The notes: generated from the sequence alone by a model not told the origin. A DNA stretch of 64,000 bases from Mycetocola manganoxydans (GCF_003667545.1 NZ_RCUV01000009.1:1-64000), one strand, 5' to 3'; positions 9,377 through 59,823 are shown, counted from the first letter of the stretch. Translations and numbers: made by a program.

Positions 9377-9551
9377 GGAAACAACGAGTTCGAGTATGAC
9401 ACACGAATTCGCATCGAACAAATTGGCACGATGACAGTTCTCGTACAGGCAGAAGACGGTCCGAGAAGCCCCGGGAGGTGCCGCATCCTCCCCAATGTCA
9501 AGTCGGGCGCGTCCGCTTGAAAGCCAGCGTGTGAGGGTATTAGCTCAACCT

Positions 9552-10190
9552 ATGCGACTGACAAAGCTCGAACACGCTGCCCTGCTTCTCGAAGACTCCG
9601 GACGGAAGCTCTTCATCGATCCGGGATCCTTCACGACGGCGATCACCGAGGGTGCACAATGCGTCGCGATTGTGATCACTCACGAGCATCCGGACCATTG
9701 GACGCCCGAGCAGATCGACCGCATCCTCAGCAAGAGCCCCGATGCCAGGATTTTTGGGCCAGCGGGCGTGGCCGCAGCGGCCAGCAACCTGCCCATCGAG
9801 GTCGTCAAGGCCGGTGACGAGGTCGAAGTGGGCCCGTTCACCCTTCGGTTCTTCGGAGAGAAGCACAACGTCATCCACGAATCGATTCCCGTCGTCGACA
9901 ACGTCGGCGTGCTCGTGAACGGAACGCTGTTCTACGGCGGTGACTCGTACACGGTGCCGGAGGATGTCGACGTCGACGTCCACGCGGTTCCTGCCGGTGC
10001 TCCCTGGCTGAAGATCGGCGACGTGATGGACTACGTTCTCGAGGTCAAGCCCAAGCGGTCCTTCCCCACGCACGAGATGACTCTCGCGAAAGCCGGCAAG
10101 GACATGTCGAACACGCGCATCAAATGGGCCACCGAGCAGAACGACGGCGAATTCTTCCCACTGATGCCGGGTGACTCCCTCGACATCTAG
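9552..10190 (+). CDS. Metallo-beta-lactamase-fold hydrolase (UPF0173/YtkL-like)
   Basis: A 212-residue protein of the small MBL-fold family. It begins MRLTKLEHAALLLEDSGRKLFIDPG, has the metal motif THEHPDH at about residues 42-48 (HxHxDH), an FGEKHNVIHES strand and a C-terminal FPTHEMTLAKAG histidine. Such proteins bind two metal ions and hydrolyse an unknown substrate. The start at 9552 is preferred over an in-frame codon 19 residues upstream because family members start at this point and a -10-like TTAGCT lies six bases before the ATG, suggesting a leaderless message. It converges with the histidine kinase gene. Confidence 0.85.
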   Translation: MRLTKLEHAALLLEDSGRKLFIDPGSFTTAITEGAQCVAIVITHEHPDHWTPEQIDRILSKSPDARIFGPAGVAAAASNLPIEVVKAGDEVEVGPFTLRFFGEKHNVIHESIPVVDNVGVLVNGTLFYGGDSYTVPEDVDVDVHAVPAGAPWLKIGDVMDYVLEVKPKRSFPTHEMTLAKAGKDMSNTRIKWATEQNDGEFFPLMPGDSLDI

Positions 10191-11911
10191 CCGACGGCGA
10201 CCGTCGCATCCTGAGGCAACCGGAGTGTGAACACTGTTCCCTCCCCCTCGACGCTCGCGACATCGAGTTCGCCGCCGTGCGCGCGAACGATCGCCTTTGT
10301 GATGACGAGACCGAGGCCGACCCCTGGCACCGCGTTCGCTGTTGCCGTCGAGGCGCGGAAGAAGCGCGTGGCGAGCTTGTCCAGTTCATCCGCCGCTATT
10401 CCCATGCCGGTATCCCGAACGGTGATCTCCACCGACTGCGGGAAGACGGACAGTCCGACGTGGACGCTCCCGCCGCGTGGCGTGAACTTGATGGCGTTCG
10501 AGACGAGATTGTCCACGGCCTGGCCGAGCCTGCGCCGGTCACCGGGGAACGATGTCGCTTCCGGGGCGATCTCCGCCGCCAGATGGATGCCGTTCGCCTC
10601 TGCGACGGGTCGCGCCGAGTCGACAGCGCCCTGGATGAGGTCCTCCGGGGACACCTCCTCGATCGTGAGCGGGAAGCCGCCTGAATCGGCCTGAGCGGTG
10701 AAGAGAAGGTCACCGACAAGACCGAGCAGCCGGTGCGCATTCCGTTCGGCCACCCCCAGGTACAACTGCTGCTCGTCGGAGAGGGGCGCGTCCTCGTCGT
10801 CCTTCATCAGTTCGAGGTAACCGAGAATCGAGCTCAGCGGGGTGCGGAGCTCGTGCGAAACGAGGCCGACGAATTCGTCCTTGAGCTTCGACACCTCGAC
10901 CGCGTGGGTGATGTCTGTCGCGACGAAGATGTATCCGGTGGGTGCCCCTGAAGCGTCCAGGCGAGGGCTGACAGCCACCTCGACGGGGAACTGGGTTCCC
11001 CCGGAGCGACGGTAGGTCCAGTCGTGGAGTTCCGGAACACCAAGCCGTGCAGACTCGACGAGTGCCGAGAAGCCGGGGTTGAGCACGGTGGCACCGGCCG
11101 GGTAGTTCAGTTCGCGCGACCTGTTCTCGAGTTCGTCGTCGAGGTGGAAGTCCAGGATCGACGCTCGCCCGACCACATCGGTCGCGCTGCGCCCCAGCAT
11201 CGCTTCCGCGCCCGGGTTGAACACATCGATCCGACCGACGAGGTCTGTGCCGATGATGGCCTGTATCGTGACGGCGTCGAGCACGCTCGACGTGAACTGG
11301 TTGGCGGTCCGGAGCTCGAACTCGGAGTCACGCAATTCGTCGAGGCTGTCCTCCCGCGCCTGGGCGAGGGACCGGATCGATTCCACCTGCACCCTTCGTT
11401 GCCGGGACATCTCGTTGACGATGCCTGCAACGATCGCGAAGACGAAGGGTGCGACGATGCCGCGCAGCCATTCGGTCGCGGTGCTGGGCACTTCGCCGTA
11501 GACGATGAACGGCAGCATGATGGCCGCCGCGGTCCCGATCCCGGCGACCAGAATCCATCGCCGACCCTCCTCCGCGGCGATCCAGATGACCGGGAGGATG
11601 ATGAGCGATGAGAACAGGGATGTCGCTCCTCCCGTCCCAACCCGGAGAAGAGCGATCGCGAACAACGCGGCGAGTGGCACGGAGAGCACCCAGAGGGACG
11701 GGGTCCTGGTCTTCGTGAACCACACAGCGAGGATCACCGACCCTGCTGCAACAGCAACGGCCACAACGAACGCGAACAGCTGGGTGATCGGAACGCCCGG
11801 GGTGTACAACGCGATGAGAAACGCCACCACGAGGGAGATCGCGGTGGGAGCATGCTTGAGCAAAGGACTTGGCTGGTCGACGCTGATCAGCTTGCCGACG
11901 TCGAACCTCAC
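10187..11911 (-). CDS. Membrane PAS sensor histidine kinase, last gene of the overlapping operon
   Basis: This 574-residue protein has six hydrophobic segments between about 21 and 165, a short coiled linker, a PAS domain (about 205-335), a HisKA dimerisation helix with phospho-acceptor His353 (VSHELRTPLS), and an HATPase domain with N box (DNLVSNAIKF), G1 (DTGMGIAADE) and G2 (GVGLGLVITKAI). It can sense a membrane or redox/ligand signal and pass phosphate to a receiver. Its start overlaps the stop of the upstream receiver by 4 bases. The only receivers in the operon are two stand-alone domains and one fused to a deacetylase, so no direct transcriptional output is visible. Confidence 0.93.
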   Translation of the reverse strand: MRFDVGKLISVDQPSPLLKHAPTAISLVVAFLIALYTPGVPITQLFAFVVAVAVAAGSVILAVWFTKTRTPSLWVLSVPLAALFAIALLRVGTGGATSLFSSLIILPVIWIAAEEGRRWILVAGIGTAAAIMLPFIVYGEVPSTATEWLRGIVAPFVFAIVAGIVNEMSRQRRVQVESIRSLAQAREDSLDELRDSEFELRTANQFTSSVLDAVTIQAIIGTDLVGRIDVFNPGAEAMLGRSATDVVGRASILDFHLDDELENRSRELNYPAGATVLNPGFSALVESARLGVPELHDWTYRRSGGTQFPVEVAVSPRLDASGAPTGYIFVATDITHAVEVSKLKDEFVGLVSHELRTPLSSILGYLELMKDDEDAPLSDEQQLYLGVAERNAHRLLGLVGDLLFTAQADSGGFPLTIEEVSPEDLIQGAVDSARPVAEANGIHLAAEIAPEATSFPGDRRRLGQAVDNLVSNAIKFTPRGGSVHVGLSVFPQSVEITVRDTGMGIAADELDKLATRFFRASTATANAVPGVGLGLVITKAIVRAHGGELDVASVEGEGTVFTLRLPQDATVAVG

Positions 11912-12303
11912 TGGGCCAGTTCCCTGCCGCGAGCGAGCTCAGCGAGCTTGGCGGCGAGAAGCCGTGGGCTGAAGGGCTTGGGCATGAAATCGTTCGCACC
12001 GGCGTCCATGCCGGCATCGCGCGAGGCTCCGCTGACGCCCGCAGACAGCAGAAGCACTGGGATGTGTTTGAGGGACGGGTCATTGCGGACCAGTCGGCAC
12101 ACATCAAGGCCGCTCATCCCCGGCATCGAGACATCCAGGACGACCACATCGGGGGCCTCATCGCGGATGAGAATCCAGGCCTGGGTTCCGTCGGTTGCGA
12201 CCGCCGCCAGTTCGAGACCGGCCTTTCGCACGGCGATCTCCACGAGCATCCGCATGTCGGGGTCGTCGTCGGCGATGACAACGCGAACGGGTGCCTCAGC
12301 CAT
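11908..12303 (-). CDS. Stand-alone response regulator receiver domain
   Basis: A 131-residue protein that is a single CheY-like domain: acidic pocket Asp12-Asp13-Asp14, phospho-acceptor Asp57 (VVVLDVSMPG), a Ser in place of Thr in LLLSAG, and the conserved Lys in PKPF. It has no output domain. The start follows GGAGGAACG directly and overlaps the upstream receiver gene by 8 bases; the stop overlaps the kinase start by 4 bases. A phospho-sink, a phosphorelay intermediate or a protein-interaction switch are the plausible roles. Confidence 0.93.
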   Translation of the reverse strand: MAEAPVRVVIADDDPDMRMLVEIAVRKAGLELAAVATDGTQAWILIRDEAPDVVVLDVSMPGMSGLDVCRLVRNDPSLKHIPVLLLSAGVSGASRDAGMDAGANDFMPKPFSPRLLAAKLAELARGRELAQ

Positions 12304-12664
12304 CGTTCCTCCAGTCGGGAAGGCAGCTTTCGAGCACCTGCTCGACGTTCTGTCTGGTGAATGGTTTCGGAAGCACGCCATCGGACTCGGGGAACTCAGC
12401 CGGATCGAGCACGCTCGTCACGACGATGGCGCATGCGGGCTGCTCGGCCTTCAGCAGTTCGATGAGCGTGGATCCGTCCATGCCCGGCAGCATGAGGTCG
12501 ACGACCGCGAGGTCAGGCGCGCTCTCGCGGTAGGCGAGAATCGCCTCTTCAGCGGATTTGGTGAGGACGACAGTGCAGCCTGCGCGTTCGAAGTTTCGCC
12601 GGAGCAGGTCCATCTGGTCCAGGTTGTCCTCGACGACGAGAACCCGCGGCGGGGACCCGGTCAC
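12296..12664 (-). CDS. Second stand-alone response regulator receiver domain
   Basis: This 122-residue single receiver has acidic residues Glu12-Asp13, phospho-acceptor Asp56 (AVVDLMLPGMDG), VVTS at the Thr/Ser position and LPKPF with the conserved Lys. It ends where the fold ends, so it lacks any DNA-binding or enzymatic output. It is one of three receivers encoded in the operon. Its start overlaps the stop of the small membrane protein gene by 4 bases and its stop overlaps the next receiver gene. Confidence 0.93.
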   Translation of the reverse strand: MTGSPPRVLVVEDNLDQMDLLRRNFERAGCTVVLTKSAEEAILAYRESAPDLAVVDLMLPGMDGSTLIELLKAEQPACAIVVTSVLDPAEFPESDGVLPKPFTRQNVEQVLESCLPDWRNDG

Positions 12665-12831
12665 GCGAAGAACAGCTCTCGTACGACGACCAGCAGCACG
12701 ACGAAAGCAATCGCGATCACCGTCTTGGGCACGAGTGCCCGCTCTCCCGCTCGGTTCTCATCGATCTCGGCCTGGAGGAACGCATCCCCCGGATGCCTCG
12801 GATCGCCGGCGGGCGGCGTGTGATCGATCAT
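12661..12831 (-). CDS. 56-residue single-pass membrane protein between glycosyltransferase and receivers
   Basis: The ATG at 12831 overlaps the stop of the glycosyltransferase gene in an ATGA junction, and the stop overlaps the next start in the same way, which argues that this short frame is translated. The peptide has a polar, Pro- and acid-rich N-terminal 33 residues and one C-terminal helix (TVIAIAFVVLLVVVREL, about 37-53) ending FFA. No family is recognised. A small partner of the processive glycosyltransferase, by analogy with PgaD-like subunits, is one possibility (inference only). Confidence 0.75.
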   Translation of the reverse strand: MIDHTPPAGDPRHPGDAFLQAEIDENRAGERALVPKTVIAIAFVVLLVVVRELFFA

Positions 12832-14327
12832 GCGGTGACTCTTCCCGTCTTCTCTGTCTTGTCCCACTTCGCCTCGGCGTGACGGAGTTCCTTGATGTAC
12901 GAGTCGAAGGTGATTGCGCACAGAAGTGAACCATAACCCACGAGGTAGATGAGAGCTGGCGAGAGCACCCGTCCGACCCTGGTCTTTTCGATCCTTCGCG
13001 CCAGCCAGGCACCGAGCATCGACACCGAGATCCAGATGTAGATCGACAGGGTGATCCAGAAGAGACCGGTCTCGGTCAATTGTGCTCCGAAGAGCGACGG
13101 CAGCCACTCGAGCAGCAGGCCGGGGAAGAACGCCGTGAGCATCACGAGCATGGAGATGATTCCCGGGAACGTCAGTACTTCACGCCAGGTCTTTCGAGTC
13201 AGTTCTCCATCGAGCTGGACAGCCAGGGCGAGAGTGAACGTGAACGTGCAGGCGGCGGTGATCCACAGAGCTCGGAAAAGCACCGTTGCCAGGTCGCTTT
13301 GAAGCAACAGGAGCCCGACGAGGCCGATCGACGAAAGAACCATCGCGATCGGGAGCAACCACAGGCTGAACCACACGATGCCGAACGAGATCGTGCCGAG
13401 CTTGTGGTCCTTCGATGGGCGGAACCAGATGTTGCGATACCGCGACGTGACGGTGACGTTCCCCCGCGCCCAGCGGAGTCGCTGCTTCCACAGTGCATCG
13501 ATCGAACCGGGCTCCTCCGCGAGAACGACCGCGAGCGGTTCGAAGACAACCGTGCGTCCCTTGAGTTGGGTTTCGAACGTGGTGATCGTGTCCTCGGCGA
13601 GAGACGACGTGTCGATCTGTCCGCCGATGGCGAGAAGATTCTCGCGAGAGTGCAATTGGGCACCGCCGGCGAGACAGGCCTGGGCGCCGAGCACATTCTG
13701 GGCACGGCGAGCCGCAGGTTGCGAAAGAACGTACTCGAGGGCGATGAACCGCGTGAGGTAGTTCTTGTCCTTACTTCCCTCGCGAATGTACGCAGATACC
13801 GCTCCGACGGCGGGGTCGGCGAGGTGCCGGGTCATCCGTCGCAGGGAGTTCGGGGTGTAGATGACATCAGCATCCATCACAAGGAGCGCCTGCATCCAGT
13901 CGTCTTCGAGGACGACGCGGATGCCGTGATTGAGGGTGTGGGCTTTGCCTTCGCCGCCCTTTTCCCTGCGCAGGTGGAACACGTTGCCGGGATACTGTTT
14001 TGCCTTGCGACGGACGACGTCGGGTGTGTCATCGGTGCTGGCATCGTCGACGACGTACAGGCGCAATGATTCGAGCGGGTATTCAAGCGCCATCAGTCGG
14101 TCGATCGACGCCCCGATCACCGCCCCTTCGTTCCAGGCGGGGATCACGATGGCCACCCGAGGCGTGTACGGTGCCGCCTTGCGGTAGTGGTTGACGACCG
14201 CGTGAACGGGGATCGCCAGGAACGTGTATGCGGCGGACACGACGGGGATCGCGCCGGTGCCGACGAAGACGAGAAGAATGACAGCGAGGATGCCGCCGAG
14301 CACCGCGAAAAGATCGTCCGCGTTCAC
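12828..14327 (-). CDS. Processive family 2 glycosyltransferase (PgaC/cellulose-synthase-like)
   Basis: A 499-residue membrane enzyme. It has one or two N-terminal helices (about 7-45), a GT-A domain (about 55-290) with PAWNEG (63-68), VVDDASTDD (92-100), the metal-binding MDAD (Asp152/Asp154), catalytic LAED (Asp246) and QRLRW (282-286), then four to five C-terminal helices. This D,D,D,QxxRW set defines processive beta-glycosyltransferases such as poly-N-acetylglucosamine, hyaluronan and cellulose synthases. The product is not predictable, but the deacetylase fused to a receiver in the same operon suggests an N-acetylated sugar. Start overlaps the PHP gene by 4 bases. Confidence 0.92.
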   Translation of the reverse strand: MNADDLFAVLGGILAVILLVFVGTGAIPVVSAAYTFLAIPVHAVVNHYRKAAPYTPRVAIVIPAWNEGAVIGASIDRLMALEYPLESLRLYVVDDASTDDTPDVVRRKAKQYPGNVFHLRREKGGEGKAHTLNHGIRVVLEDDWMQALLVMDADVIYTPNSLRRMTRHLADPAVGAVSAYIREGSKDKNYLTRFIALEYVLSQPAARRAQNVLGAQACLAGGAQLHSRENLLAIGGQIDTSSLAEDTITTFETQLKGRTVVFEPLAVVLAEEPGSIDALWKQRLRWARGNVTVTSRYRNIWFRPSKDHKLGTISFGIVWFSLWLLPIAMVLSSIGLVGLLLLQSDLATVLFRALWITAACTFTFTLALAVQLDGELTRKTWREVLTFPGIISMLVMLTAFFPGLLLEWLPSLFGAQLTETGLFWITLSIYIWISVSMLGAWLARRIEKTRVGRVLSPALIYLVGYGSLLCAITFDSYIKELRHAEAKWDKTEKTGRVTA

Positions 14328-15052
14328 GAGATACCCGCGCCCAGAAGAAGCTGCTGAACGCCGCGATAGACGCCGACGTCACCCGCCGTGTGGCTGTCGG
14401 TCGATGCGACCAGCTCCGCACCAGCAGCGAGCGCGGCTTTCAGCGCCCGGCTTCCGGGGCAGAGCCACTTCTCGTTCACTTCGATGAGGGTTCCCGTGCG
14501 AGCGGCCGCCGAGGCCCACACCGACAGGTGCTCGTCGCTGAGGTCGTCCTCGGAGAGCCCGATCTTCGGCAGGATCGAAAAGCAATGCGCGAGCTGCGCC
14601 GATGGTACGGACTCCATCGACGCGACGAGCGCGCCGATGAGGAGGTCAACGGCATCCGTCGCAGCCATGCCTGACTCGATGCGTTCGCGAGTCTCGCGGG
14701 GCGACCACGGACCGTCCGTTCCCGGGAACTGGTGGTCCGCAATTAGAACGGCATCGATACCGCCGGCGCCGAAGCGGAGACTCGGTGGTACATCGAGTCG
14801 GCCGCTGGCATCGAGGATCTTGACCTCGACGCCGGTGATGACCGTCATCCCGTCCGGCACGGTCAGTTCGCGCGTCGCACGAAGAAAGTCCGGCAGCCAT
14901 GGCGTGGACTCACGGACGTGATCGACCAGCCGGAGCCGGGTAAGACCTCGCGCGTGGGCCGCAGAGACATTCTCGGCGAGCGTGCTGGCGGCGTCGTCCG
15001 AGAACGTCGAGTGGACGTGGTGGTCTCCCTTGAGAAGGCCGGCGGCCGTCAC
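14324..15052 (-). CDS. PHP-domain metal-dependent phosphoesterase
   Basis: The 242-residue protein is a single PHP domain. DHHVHSTFSDDA (10-21) provides the first His-x-His motif, LVDHVRE the next His, GVEVKI the conserved Glu, IADHQF another His, and ASTDSH the terminal Asp-x-His. The family includes histidinol phosphatases and various phosphoesterases or nuclease domains. The histidine pathway is not otherwise present here, and the operon context suggests action on a sugar phosphate or a precursor of the surface product (inference). Four-base overlaps with both neighbours. Confidence 0.88.
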   Translation of the reverse strand: MTAAGLLKGDHHVHSTFSDDAASTLAENVSAAHARGLTRLRLVDHVRESTPWLPDFLRATRELTVPDGMTVITGVEVKILDASGRLDVPPSLRFGAGGIDAVLIADHQFPGTDGPWSPRETRERIESGMAATDAVDLLIGALVASMESVPSAQLAHCFSILPKIGLSEDDLSDEHLSVWASAAARTGTLIEVNEKWLCPGSRALKAALAAGAELVASTDSHTAGDVGVYRGVQQLLLGAGIS

Positions 15053-16047
15053 TGGTCGAGCCCGTCGTCGTGCGCAGCGTTCTCGGAGATCAGAATCTCG
15101 GAGGTCGGGACGAAGACGTCCTCGAGGTAGCGGACGTTGGCGATCTCGGCGAACTCGATCCGTTCGGGCAGTTCGGTGCCGAGCGCAAGATCGAGCGCCA
15201 GCGACGGCATGTCCACACCGGCAGCGATCGTGAGGGGCATGGCGCCGGGGAACCGCGGGTTGACCTCGAGGAGTGCGGGTATCCCGGCACGGTCGAGGCG
15301 CAACTGAACGTTGGCGACGCCGGTGAGCCCGATTGCGGCTGCGACGGTCGCTGCCGTCTCTTCGAGCGCTGAATCTCTCACGGTTCGACCGGCGATGGAA
15401 ACGCCGGAGTCGACGCGGGTCCTGGTTCGCGGGACAGCAGCGAGAACGCGACCGGAGGCATCCGCGAAGACGTCGACGGAGAACTCATCACCGGGCAGGA
15501 ACTCCTGGATGATGAGCGCTTCGTCGAAACCGGTCGCGACGAGAGCCTCCCGGCTGTCGACGATGCGGACGCCCCGGGATCCCGCACCACGCCGCGGTTT
15601 GACGATGACAGGGAAATCCCACGGCTCGGAGGCTCCCTCGGCGGTGAGGAGGTGTGTCGTGGGCACGCGAGCTGCCCCGGTCACACGCTCCGCGAGGAGG
15701 TATTTGTCGAGAGTGACGTCAAGCGTCTCGATGGAGGGCGCAGCGAGAACGGCCCCGGCTGCCTTCAGGTCAGCGCGACGAGCCGCGAGGGCCGGAAGCT
15801 CCGCGTCGACCGTTGAGAAGACGACGTCGATGGCTTCCGTGCGACACAGGTCGATGATGGCGTCGACGAAGTCCGCTGCGTCACCGCGCGGAACGATTCG
15901 GCGGCGGTCGGCGGATACGAGGTACAGGCCGCTTGCCCAGCCGTCCATGTCAGCGGAGAAGAGATCGACGTCAGCGCGCTTGAGCAGTGAACGGAGCACA
16001 GCGACTCCGGCCGGTCCCCCTGTCCCGGTTACCAGTACTCGTGTCAT
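15049..16047 (-). CDS. ATP-grasp domain protein (carbamoyl-phosphate-synthase-like)
   Basis: A 332-residue ATP-grasp ligase. The N-terminal pre-ATP-grasp fold starts MTRVLVTGTGGPAGVAVLRS, the ATP-binding part contains DFPVIVKPRRGAGSRGVRI and IIQEFLPGDEFSVDVF, and the metal site is in PALLEVNPRFPGAMPLTI. Proteins of this type join a carboxylate to an amine or thiol using ATP. No amino-acid or peptide partner is evident, so the substrate is unknown. Overlaps of 4 bases with the upstream receiver-deacetylase gene and the downstream PHP gene imply coupled translation. Confidence 0.9.
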   Translation of the reverse strand: MTRVLVTGTGGPAGVAVLRSLLKRADVDLFSADMDGWASGLYLVSADRRRIVPRGDAADFVDAIIDLCRTEAIDVVFSTVDAELPALAARRADLKAAGAVLAAPSIETLDVTLDKYLLAERVTGAARVPTTHLLTAEGASEPWDFPVIVKPRRGAGSRGVRIVDSREALVATGFDEALIIQEFLPGDEFSVDVFADASGRVLAAVPRTRTRVDSGVSIAGRTVRDSALEETAATVAAAIGLTGVANVQLRLDRAGIPALLEVNPRFPGAMPLTIAAGVDMPSLALDLALGTELPERIEFAEIANVRYLEDVFVPTSEILISENAAHDDGLDQ

Positions 16048-17120
16048 CGTTGTGCTCCCTCGTCGTGGCTTGCGTGTTTGACCGCGCGGACCGCGGTTTC
16101 GATGTCGCGGTGTGTTACCGCCAGTTCGGTCGCCTCCCGGACGATCTCAAGCGGTTCGCAGTTCTTGCCGGAGCCGTAGCGGCTCCAGTACCTCGCTGTG
16201 GCGAGGACGAAATCCGGCTCGAGGTAGTCGCGGATGCCAGCCTGTGACGCAAAGCTCGCCAAAAGCTCCAGTTTGGTCTCGGTGAAACCATCGATCGAGA
16301 CGAAACGCGTTGGCCGGAAATCGACCGTTGCCGACGGACTCTGGAAGCACGCCACCGTGTTCACCCGCCTGGTGGCGACGAGGGCAGCTGCATGGACGGC
16401 GCGATGGTCCTGATGGCGGTCGTGATCGCTGTGGGTGTAAACGATGGTGGGTGTGACCTCAGCCACGACCCGCTCGATGATTCCAACGGTTGGATCCGAG
16501 TTGCTGATCGCTGTATCGGGGAGGTCCTCGAGAAAGAGCCGCGCTCCGAGCATCTCCGCGGCAGCGAGGGATTCGTGCTGACGCCCGTCTGCTTCCCCAC
16601 CGCGCGACCCGCGCGACAGGGTCAGGATTGCGACCGAGTCCCCCGCTGCTCGATGAGCGGCGAGGAGCCCGCCGACGCCGATTTCGACATCGTCGGGGTG
16701 AGCGCCGATGGCAAGGACGACGTTGCGGGGTACGGATGCCTGCGCGCGGCGGAACCCCGCAGCCAGCCTTGTCGCCACGCTCACCATTTCGGCGGAGGCG
16801 ATGGGCTTGGTGAGGAATTCGTCCGCCGCGTTACGCAACGCGGAGACCGCGTAGCTCACCGAGACGTGCGCGGTCATCACGACGACGGGCGTACCCGGCT
16901 GCGCGTCACGGACCTCGGCGATGAGGTCGAGGCCGGTCATCCCCGGCATCTCGATGTCGGTGATCACCACGTCCGGGGCGAACTCAACGGTGTTCCGCCT
17001 GGCGGTGAGAGGGTCGGACAGCGCCCGGACGTCGAAGCCTTTTCTGGTGAGAATCGTCTGAACATAGAACAGAACGTCCAGGTCGTCTTCGACCACGAGC
17101 ACCCGATATGCGTTTTCCAC
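16044..17120 (-). CDS. Response regulator receiver fused to PIG-L family deacetylase, first gene of the operon
   Basis: This 358-residue protein has two clear parts. Residues 1-125 are a full receiver: Glu11-Asp12-Asp13, phospho-acceptor Asp55 (VVITDIEMPG), Thr83 and Lys105 (LTKP). Residues 133-345 are a PIG-L/LmbE/MshB-type de-N-acetylase with AHPDD (140-144), GxGG and the second zinc motif HSDHDRHQDHRAVH. These metalloenzymes remove acetyl groups from N-acetylglucosamine-type sugars. The fusion suggests that phosphorylation controls deacetylation directly. It starts with GTG after a GAGGGGGGA stretch, 64 bp after the M23 peptidase stop. A TAGAGT -10 candidate lies at 17146-17151. Confidence 0.92.
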   Translation of the reverse strand: MENAYRVLVVEDDLDVLFYVQTILTRKGFDVRALSDPLTARRNTVEFAPDVVITDIEMPGMTGLDLIAEVRDAQPGTPVVVMTAHVSVSYAVSALRNAADEFLTKPIASAEMVSVATRLAAGFRRAQASVPRNVVLAIGAHPDDVEIGVGGLLAAHRAAGDSVAILTLSRGSRGGEADGRQHESLAAAEMLGARLFLEDLPDTAISNSDPTVGIIERVVAEVTPTIVYTHSDHDRHQDHRAVHAAALVATRRVNTVACFQSPSATVDFRPTRFVSIDGFTETKLELLASFASQAGIRDYLEPDFVLATARYWSRYGSGKNCEPLEIVREATELAVTHRDIETAVRAVKHASHDEGAQR

Positions 17121-17184
17121 AGTCCCCCCTCAGAGCCTGGGGACTACTCTAAGTGCTCGCCGGAACCGATCCGGCATACACACC

Positions 17185-17736
17185 TCAGAGTGTGATTTTG
17201 CGGAGAGCCATGAACGGCTTCGGATCGACGTAGACGCCGCCGACGCGGATCTTGAGATCGAGGTGGCAACCGGTCACCACTCCCGTAGCACCGACCTTGG
17301 CGATGACGGCACCGGAGTCGATCTGATCTCCTGCTGCAACAGCGAACGATCCCGTCTGAAGGTGACCATAGATCGACTGGAGTCCTGATCCGTGGTCGAT
17401 GATGATTCGCTGGCCGAACGAACCGGCGTTCGCGGCCGCGGTCACGCGACCCGCGGAGACGGCCTTGACCGGTGTGCCGCAGGCGGAACCGAAGTCGATT
17501 CCATCGTGGAACGAATTCGAGCACCCCACCGGGTTGCAGATGACCTTCCGGGGGCCGTACGGAGATGTGACCTTCGCGGTGACGGGACGCACCCACGCAG
17601 CGTCGGCGTCGTGCATATAGTTCCCGGGACTCGTCGCGCCGGATGCTGGGAGCGCTGCGGTGGCGACCATCGCGGGAACGGCGATCGCCAGCACCAGGAG
17701 GGAACGGAAAGAAATCCGGCGGGCGCGGGTGGTCAT
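17185..17736 (-). CDS. Secreted M23 family peptidase with altered zinc motif
   Basis: A 183-residue protein with a signal peptide (basic start, hydrophobic core about 12-29, probable cleavage after ASGA) and a LytM/M23 domain. Visible metal and catalytic positions are His77 and Asp81 (FHDGIDFG), His125 (YGHL) and His158. The usual HxH motif reads HLD, so the last His is Asp160. M23 enzymes cut peptidoglycan cross-bridges; with Asp160 the protein may be weakly active or a regulator. The ATG at 17736 is chosen because AGGA precedes it by seven bases; an upstream in-frame ATG adds 11 unlikely residues. Same orientation as the downstream signalling operon. Confidence 0.87.
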   Translation of the reverse strand: MTTRARRISFRSLLVLAIAVPAMVATAALPASGATSPGNYMHDADAAWVRPVTAKVTSPYGPRKVICNPVGCSNSFHDGIDFGSACGTPVKAVSAGRVTAAANAGSFGQRIIIDHGSGLQSIYGHLQTGSFAVAAGDQIDSGAVIAKVGATGVVTGCHLDLKIRVGGVYVDPKPFMALRKITL

Positions 17737-17971
17737 GGTCGGATCCTGTCGGTGGTATGTCAGCGGCAACTCTCAAGTGTTGCACTTCCGGCGAACTCTG
17801 GCGACGCCACGTTCGCGGGTCACGGAGAGCCGGTGATACACCACAACCACCGCCGGGCACCACAGTTGCGCTTCCTTTACCGTTCGCTCGCGAATCCGGG
17901 GGATACTCGTGCTACCGAGTATGGGACTTTCGACCGCTTCCCGTGCTGATCAACAAGAGGAGCCCGACAGG

Positions 17972-59447: not shown

Positions 59448-59823
59448 TGGTGGAGATGCGGGGAATTGAACCCCGGTCCACTGCTGTGGTCATGTGCCTT
59501 CTACGGGTGTAGCCAGTGCAGACGTTCTACTCGGCTCCGGAATTTGCCACTGGCACCTACTCCGACAAGCCCAGCCCGAGTTAAAGTCCCTCTACGCCCT
59601 CAGACACAACGCAGAAGCAATCTCTCTAAATGGCGCCAGGGTCCGGGTAGAGAGCATTCCCGGCCTGACGGACTTCTTTAGTGCGCTCGCTTAGGCAGCG
59701 AGGGCGAAGTCAGTGCGCTTTGAATTGGCACTTATTGTTTTCCAGAGATCGTTAACGAGATAACCCTGGATCCTCGACCCGCTTCTCACAGTTGCGCAGG
59801 CAGTGTCGAAACCGATCATCCCC
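59448..59823 (-). ncRNA. ssrA: Transfer-messenger RNA
   Basis: On the minus strand the RNA starts GGGGATGATCGGTTTCGACA and ends TTCAATTCCCCGCATCTCC plus A and CCA; the GGGGATG and CATCTCC ends pair as the tRNA-like acceptor. The tag frame at 59729-59691 encodes ANSKRTDFALAA followed by TAA, an actinobacterial-type degradation tag ending ALAA. It rescues stalled ribosomes with SmpB, which is encoded about 850 bp away. Confidence 0.96.

Follow-up and report, generated by a model that had tools for sequence, protein, structure and literature searches.

A conserved kinase–deacetylase operon in Mycetocola manganoxydans and its candidate amino-sugar pathway

In a 64,000-nucleotide stretch of DNA from Mycetocola manganoxydans (GCF_003667545.1 NZ_RCUV01000009.1:1-64000; this whole stretch is called the window below), we analysed eight overlapping genes that encode a membrane histidine kinase (HK), two lone receivers, a receiver fused to a PIG-L-type sugar de-N-acetylase (RecPIGL), an ATP-grasp ligase, a PHP-family enzyme, a membrane glycosyltransferase of family 2 (GT2) and a membrane protein of 56 amino acids. 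We propose, with a probability of roughly 0.55, that they form one functional unit in which the kinase sets the activity of a pathway making a conjugate of an amino sugar derived from N-acetylglucosamine (GlcNAc) on the cytosolic side of the membrane. Four observations form its basis: the unit is conserved, the biosynthetic genes are present or absent together, the PIG-L active site is kept or lost with them, and the receiver is retained.

Results

The eight-gene operon

The genes occupy 10187-17120 on the minus strand and are listed from the first to the last, followed by the gap in front of them.

16044-17120, minus: RecPIGL, receiver and PIG-L/LmbE-type de-N-acetylase (PF00072, 4.8e-27; PF02585, 2.8e-24)
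15049-16047, minus: ATP-grasp ligase, PylC/CPSase-like (PF15632, ATPgrasp_Ter/ATP-grasp_3, 6.5e-33; PylC-like N domain)
14324-15052, minus: PHP-family metallophosphatase-like enzyme, YcdX/PolX/HisJ-like (PF02811, 9e-8)
12828-14327, minus: membrane GT2 glycosyltransferase (PF13641, Glyco_tranf_2_3, 3e-29)
12661-12831, minus: 56-amino-acid single-pass membrane protein of a new small family; belongs to the biosynthetic block (no Pfam or NCBIfam match)
12296-12664, minus: lone receiver RecA, phospho-acceptor D56 (PF00072, 1.4e-16)
11908-12303, minus: lone receiver RecB, phospho-acceptor D57 (PF00072, 9.8e-26)
10187-11911, minus: HK, membrane PAS histidine kinase, H353 (Pfam PAS, HisKA and HATPase_c)
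17121-17184, minus: 64-base-pair gap before the first gene, probably the promoter region

All seven junctions overlap, in this order by 4, 4, 4, 4, 4, 8 and 4 bases. We checked every open reading frame and overlap, and the original prediction, made from the sequence of the window, had described them correctly. Its gene-by-gene domain calls also agreed with Pfam for seven proteins, while the 56-amino-acid protein matched no family in either Pfam or NCBIfam. In the nearest relative (GT2 identity 87%), there is a 4-base overlap at all seven junctions, and the operon arrangement is thus not a product of chance.

Signalling and biosynthetic modules

The operon was originally taken to be a single unit of eight genes. 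Its conservation was confirmed, with the refinement that it consists of two modules with separate histories: a signalling module of RecPIGL and HK, with or without lone receivers, and a biosynthetic block of the ATP-grasp, PHP, GT2 and 56-amino-acid proteins. A search of 400 Microbacteriaceae genomes with RecPIGL gave 64 full-length matches, counted from the listed rows; 42 of these genomes carried the ATP-grasp–PHP block and 22 had RecPIGL alone. In nearly all of the 22 block-less genomes HK lay beside RecPIGL, accompanied by zero to two lone receivers. An ATP-grasp orthologue was found nowhere in any of the 22, nor was a GT2 orthologue, and the 56-amino-acid protein was absent from all 22 loci; it was present at every block-carrying Microbacteriaceae locus and at two loci of Thermoleophilia. 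On the RecPIGL tree the state of the block changes four times, which we read as losses; the tree separates the Thermoleophilia and Myxococcota sequences, all of which carry the block. One block-less locus (L151:7905-17392) has grown to four related tandem kinases and three lone receivers.

In one genus (nine genomes), GT2 lies outside the operon, yet it was kept elsewhere in the genome in 9/9, and the 56-amino-acid protein remains beside ATP-grasp and PHP. We considered the orphan GT2 as an argument against coupling and dropped it; the genomes concerned retain the ATP-grasp–PHP operon, which supports coupling. Within a single genus, GT2 orthologues away from the operon were seen at L023, L024, L025 and L221-L227, and a genome of a different genus (G025) has an orphan copy as well as the operon copy.

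The RecPIGL active site and the block

RecPIGL is composed of a receiver (residues 6-117), which has the set D12, D13, D55, T83 and K105 with D55 as the phospho-acceptor, and a PIG-L domain (residues 134-330) with the PIG-L fold, the AHPDD and HxxH motifs and the catalytic set H141, D143, D144, H236 and H239. The best match of its AlphaFold model (predicted local distance difference test score, pLDDT, 87) in the PDB was BshB of B. subtilis (Foldseek 2e-13), and diacetylchitobiose deacetylase and teicoplanin deacetylase were also matched. These nearest structures are all GlcNAc or glucosamine-type de-N-acetylases, and on this modelled likeness RecPIGL is predicted to be a de-N-acetylase.

The five catalytic residues were intact in 50/50 primary RecPIGL copies from block-carrying loci, whereas 10/22 block-less copies had lost at least one of them (Fisher P 4e-5, uncorrected for relatedness). 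The receiver was intact in 21 of the same 22 copies and, with standard substitutions allowed, its residues were kept in 71/72 primary rows overall. Seven separate losses of the catalytic site were found on the tree, all along block-less branches, which amount to 29% of the total branch length (P about 2e-4, all rows), or 39% when only Microbacteriaceae are considered (P 1.3e-3); the active-site comparison was unplanned, and the tree P values are rough and assume branches equally prone to change.

A similar picture was obtained from sequence identity. That of the PIG-L domain was 0.75 with the block and 0.58 without it, and that of the receiver 0.61 and 0.67, respectively; PIG-L is the better-conserved half of RecPIGL where the block is present and the less-conserved half where it is absent. 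Among the positions invariant in the presence of the block, 12/55 in PIG-L were mostly lost in its absence, compared with 0/9 in the receiver. Decay of PIG-L together with retention of the receiver is as expected if the deacetylase serves the pathway of the block and the receiver serves the kinase, and it ties the deacetylase and the block together in one pathway and the receiver to HK.

The only two broken RecPIGL copies in block-carrying loci (L035 and L038) are extra paralogues beside an intact copy. RecPIGL copies are in tandem at L035:5975-8263, and the second-scoring one has N in place of H236. In Agrococcus (L038:13490-14977 and L201), the kinase gene is followed by a further RecPIGL-like gene from which residues of both the receiver and the deacetylase are missing; this copy has GASLDA in place of the AHPDD region, and an intact copy adjoins it.

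The kinase and its receivers

Across the proteins of the operon, the expected catalytic and phospho-acceptor residues proved to be conserved when 9 to 18 relatives were compared. Residues D13, D56, S84 and K100 of RecA (9 sequences) and D12-D14, D57, S87 and K109 of RecB (11 sequences) were invariant, and each of the two receivers is missing from some loci. The HEL/MRTP motif of HK was present in 67/68 kinase matches, and HK adjoins RecPIGL at nearly all Microbacteriaceae loci. At ten Microbacteriaceae loci HK and RecPIGL are present and lone receivers are missing altogether, which, as far as gene content can tell, would make RecPIGL the likeliest phosphotransfer partner and direct target of HK. 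Phosphorylation of both enzyme-linked and free receivers had been proposed. The enzyme-linked receiver is intact and the kinase travels together with RecPIGL; the free receivers are dispensable, since these ten loci lack them.

The proposed absence of a DNA-binding output from the phosphorelay applies to Microbacteriaceae but not to several Thermoleophilia, in which the core lies beside a kinase and an OmpR-type DNA-binding regulator (L039 and L115; L040 on the opposite strand), so that the missing output is a feature of Microbacteriaceae. At the actinobacterial locus L116 the core is found beside a hybrid kinase, and in Myxococcota likewise beside hybrid kinases. In one genus, a small gene for a GNAT-like acetyltransferase overlaps the end of the kinase gene (L026:10671-10958 and L027:6241-6528).

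Distribution of the gene order

Gene order proved to be conserved well past close relatives. The complete eight-gene order was present in 17 non-duplicate loci, the window included, from several Microbacteriaceae genera, and the core order RecPIGL–ATP-grasp–PHP–GT2 is common to Microbacteriaceae and Thermoleophilia; start codons of genes outside the window were picked by script. A GT2 orthologue was found in 13/150 sampled Microbacteriaceae genomes, a fourteenth match being a distant paralogue, and in 2 more genomes from a sample of 396 drawn from the whole phylum. Outside Microbacteriaceae, the core was found in Thermoleophilia and in two metagenome-assembled genomes of Myxococcota. At one Myxococcota locus the core genes are near each other but rearranged, with PHP several kilobases from GT2; at the second there was no PHP gene within the 15 kb examined. 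We also considered a plasmid origin and rejected it, as no match was obtained among 72,556 plasmids.

The biosynthetic enzymes

The ATP-grasp residues K150, E261 and N263 are invariant, in keeping with the lysine and Mg ligands conserved in ATP-grasp amide ligases, and the nearest solved structure is 2pn1. For PHP the nearest structure was ycdX (1m65, E 1e-12), and the candidate metal ligands D10, H14, D20, H45, E76, H107, H156, D219 and H221 are conserved across 18 sequences, with a variation at one HxH position in L042. In GT2 the motifs DD, DAD, ED and Q282xxRW286 were invariant in 18 sequences, as was a C-terminal KT-K-G motif. The GT2 model (pLDDT 83) was most similar to the membrane mannosyltransferase PcManGT (Z 28.7, 336 residues, 3.4 Å), and hyaluronan synthase (Z 22.6) and BcsA (Z 22.2) also aligned over about 370 residues, membrane helices included, so that both single addition and processive synthesis are possible. 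Against the NCBIfam model TIGR03937 (PgaC/IcaA), GT2 scored 124.3 bits, below the cut-off of 422.3.

Flanking genes and other features of the window

Immediately upstream of the operon is an M23 peptidase-like gene (17185-17769, minus), which was not found next to the operon in relatives, and a gene of the metallo-beta-lactamase fold (9495-10190, plus) converges on the kinase gene with a 4-base overlap. When the region in front of the first gene was searched for repeats, only an 8-base direct repeat was obtained. Genes for a nitrilase (omega-amidase-like) and an aminotransferase flank L021 and about 40 other loci, with or without the block; in L021 they lie at:

L021:5515-6357 and 13463-14656: nitrilase/aminotransferase flank

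We tried both as members of the pathway and rejected them, because they flank the two types of locus alike, which makes them look like chromosomal neighbours marking the same site, and they are absent near the window. Elsewhere in the window there is a transfer-messenger RNA gene at 59448-59823, with the tag ANSKRTDFALAA.

Discussion

Proposed pathway and its alternatives

In the pathway that we propose, GT2 would transfer an N-acetylhexosamine onto an acceptor in the membrane, the amine of that sugar would be freed by PIG-L on the cytosolic side, ATP-grasp would ligate a carboxylate (in all likelihood an amino acid), and PHP would take off a phosphate. The membrane PAS kinase would phosphorylate the RecPIGL receiver and so set deacetylation post-translationally, and the two lone receivers may be accessory, as phosphate sinks or CheY-like outputs. 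The logic of the scheme is that of the mycothiol and bacillithiol routes, in which a glycosyltransferase is followed by a PIG-L deacetylase and then by a ligase. The order of the reactions, the substrates, the product, and the phosphotransfer from kinase to receiver with its sign are those that we infer. More tentatively, the genes may constitute a two-component system whose dedicated sugar de-N-acetylase effector gates a new amino-sugar pathway at the enzyme level; after loss of the pathway this enzyme would have repeatedly become a non-catalytic signalling protein, with receiver and kinase still under selection.

Several points weigh against our proposal. The 22 block-less rows go back to some four losses, which limits the independent evidence, and a test of independent pairs on the tree had just 3-4 pairs, few for any decision. 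The absence of PHP from block-less genomes was judged at the locus. Moreover, all catalytic residues are retained in 12/22 block-less RecPIGL copies, and the deacetylase may thus serve a second purpose. A polymer is also a possible product, given that synthase-like structures align with about 370 residues of the GT2 model.

This last point leads to the alternative that we take most seriously, although we consider it unlikely: a processive GT2 would make and export an N-acetylhexosamine polysaccharide, PIG-L, ATP-grasp and PHP would tailor its precursors or the nascent chain, and the kinase would control deposition. The QxxRW motif, the alignment with hyaluronan synthase and BcsA, and PgaC/IcaA as the closest NCBIfam model, although under its cut-off, are consistent with it; the operon has no separate exporter, and the small membrane partner resembles the arrangement of PgaD/IcaD. 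However, QxxRW alone is no proof of processivity, the best structural match is a mannosyltransferase, and the processive synthesis of an envelope polysaccharide in the original prediction is not established, the model being nearer to PcManGT than to hyaluronan or cellulose synthases. The polymer deacetylases PgaB/IcaB work extracellularly, whereas RecPIGL, with PIG-L fused to a receiver, must be cytosolic and would do its work ahead of any export step; this favours a precursor bound to the membrane, or a glycolipid, over a finished exported polymer.

RecPIGL might instead be chiefly a signalling protein that uses the PIG-L fold as a protein-binding output, the block being a frequent neighbour. 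The occurrence of RecPIGL and HK alone in 22 genomes, with an intact receiver also in those that have a broken PIG-L site, argues for this, as does the dead paralogue in Agrococcus. It seems improbable to us in view of the full active site of every block-associated primary copy, in which PIG-L is moreover the better-conserved half.

We give still less credence to the synthesis of a soluble cofactor of low molecular weight, similar to mycothiol. The four enzyme types (glycosyltransferase, phosphatase, PIG-L and ligase) do correspond to the types of reaction in mycothiol synthesis. The glycosyltransferase here is an integral membrane GT2 and not a GT4, however, a membrane protein travels with the block, and the genome carries two other MshB-family matches, of which the one at G000:C1:18677-19513 is full length and scores 186 bits, under the curated cut-off. 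RecPIGL was considered as the MshB or mycothiol-type enzyme of this genome and rejected because of this separate full-length match; several block-carrying genera have no clear MshB match. That the genes are chance neighbours kept by operon structure or transfer, with no joint function, fits their patchy spread (block in 42/400 Microbacteriaceae genomes), but is very hard to reconcile with the joint loss, the retention of GT2 after relocation and the deterioration of the PIG-L site once the block is gone.

If the proposed amino-sugar pathway is correct, the operon is a compact case in which a sensor kinase controls a biosynthetic enzyme itself and not transcription, and an example of an enzyme becoming a signalling pseudoenzyme after loss of its pathway. 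It would also mark an unassigned amino-sugar pathway and a new family of small membrane proteins in Microbacteriaceae, Thermoleophilia and Myxococcota.

Comparison with known systems

No description of a receiver–PIG-L protein or of such a cluster was found in the full-text literature searched, which comprised open-licence papers; within it the statement that no system of this composition has been described stands, and the system as a whole is apparently new to the literature. RecPIGL shares its fold and zinc-site residues with BshB, MshB and diacetylchitobiose deacetylase. To our knowledge, however, the known PIG-L/LmbE deacetylases lack a fused receiver and belong to thiol, chitin-catabolic, glycosylphosphatidylinositol or antibiotic pathways. 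Mycothiol and bacillithiol biosynthesis likewise combines a glycosyltransferase, a PIG-L deacetylase and ligase chemistry, but there a GT4 and MshC/BshC are used, in place of the membrane GT2 and ATP-grasp found here, and the present genome has separate MshB-family enzymes.

The poly-N-acetylglucosamine operons pga/ica similarly combine a deacetylase with a GT2 from the same superfamily that has a small membrane protein as its neighbour. In contrast to them, the GT2 described here is far under the PgaC/IcaA cut-off, RecPIGL belongs to a different deacetylase family and lies on the opposite side of the membrane, and ATP-grasp, PHP and the kinase are present in addition. With respect to the receiver, RecPIGL resembles CheB, PleD and the archaeal REC-GT2 proteins, in which it is fused to an enzyme and not to a DNA-binding domain. 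The nearest described case is the receiver (REC) domain fused to a BcsA-like GT2 in Methanobacteriales (PMC5847659); in the operon of M. manganoxydans, the output enzyme is instead a PIG-L de-N-acetylase, and GT2 is a separate protein of the same operon.

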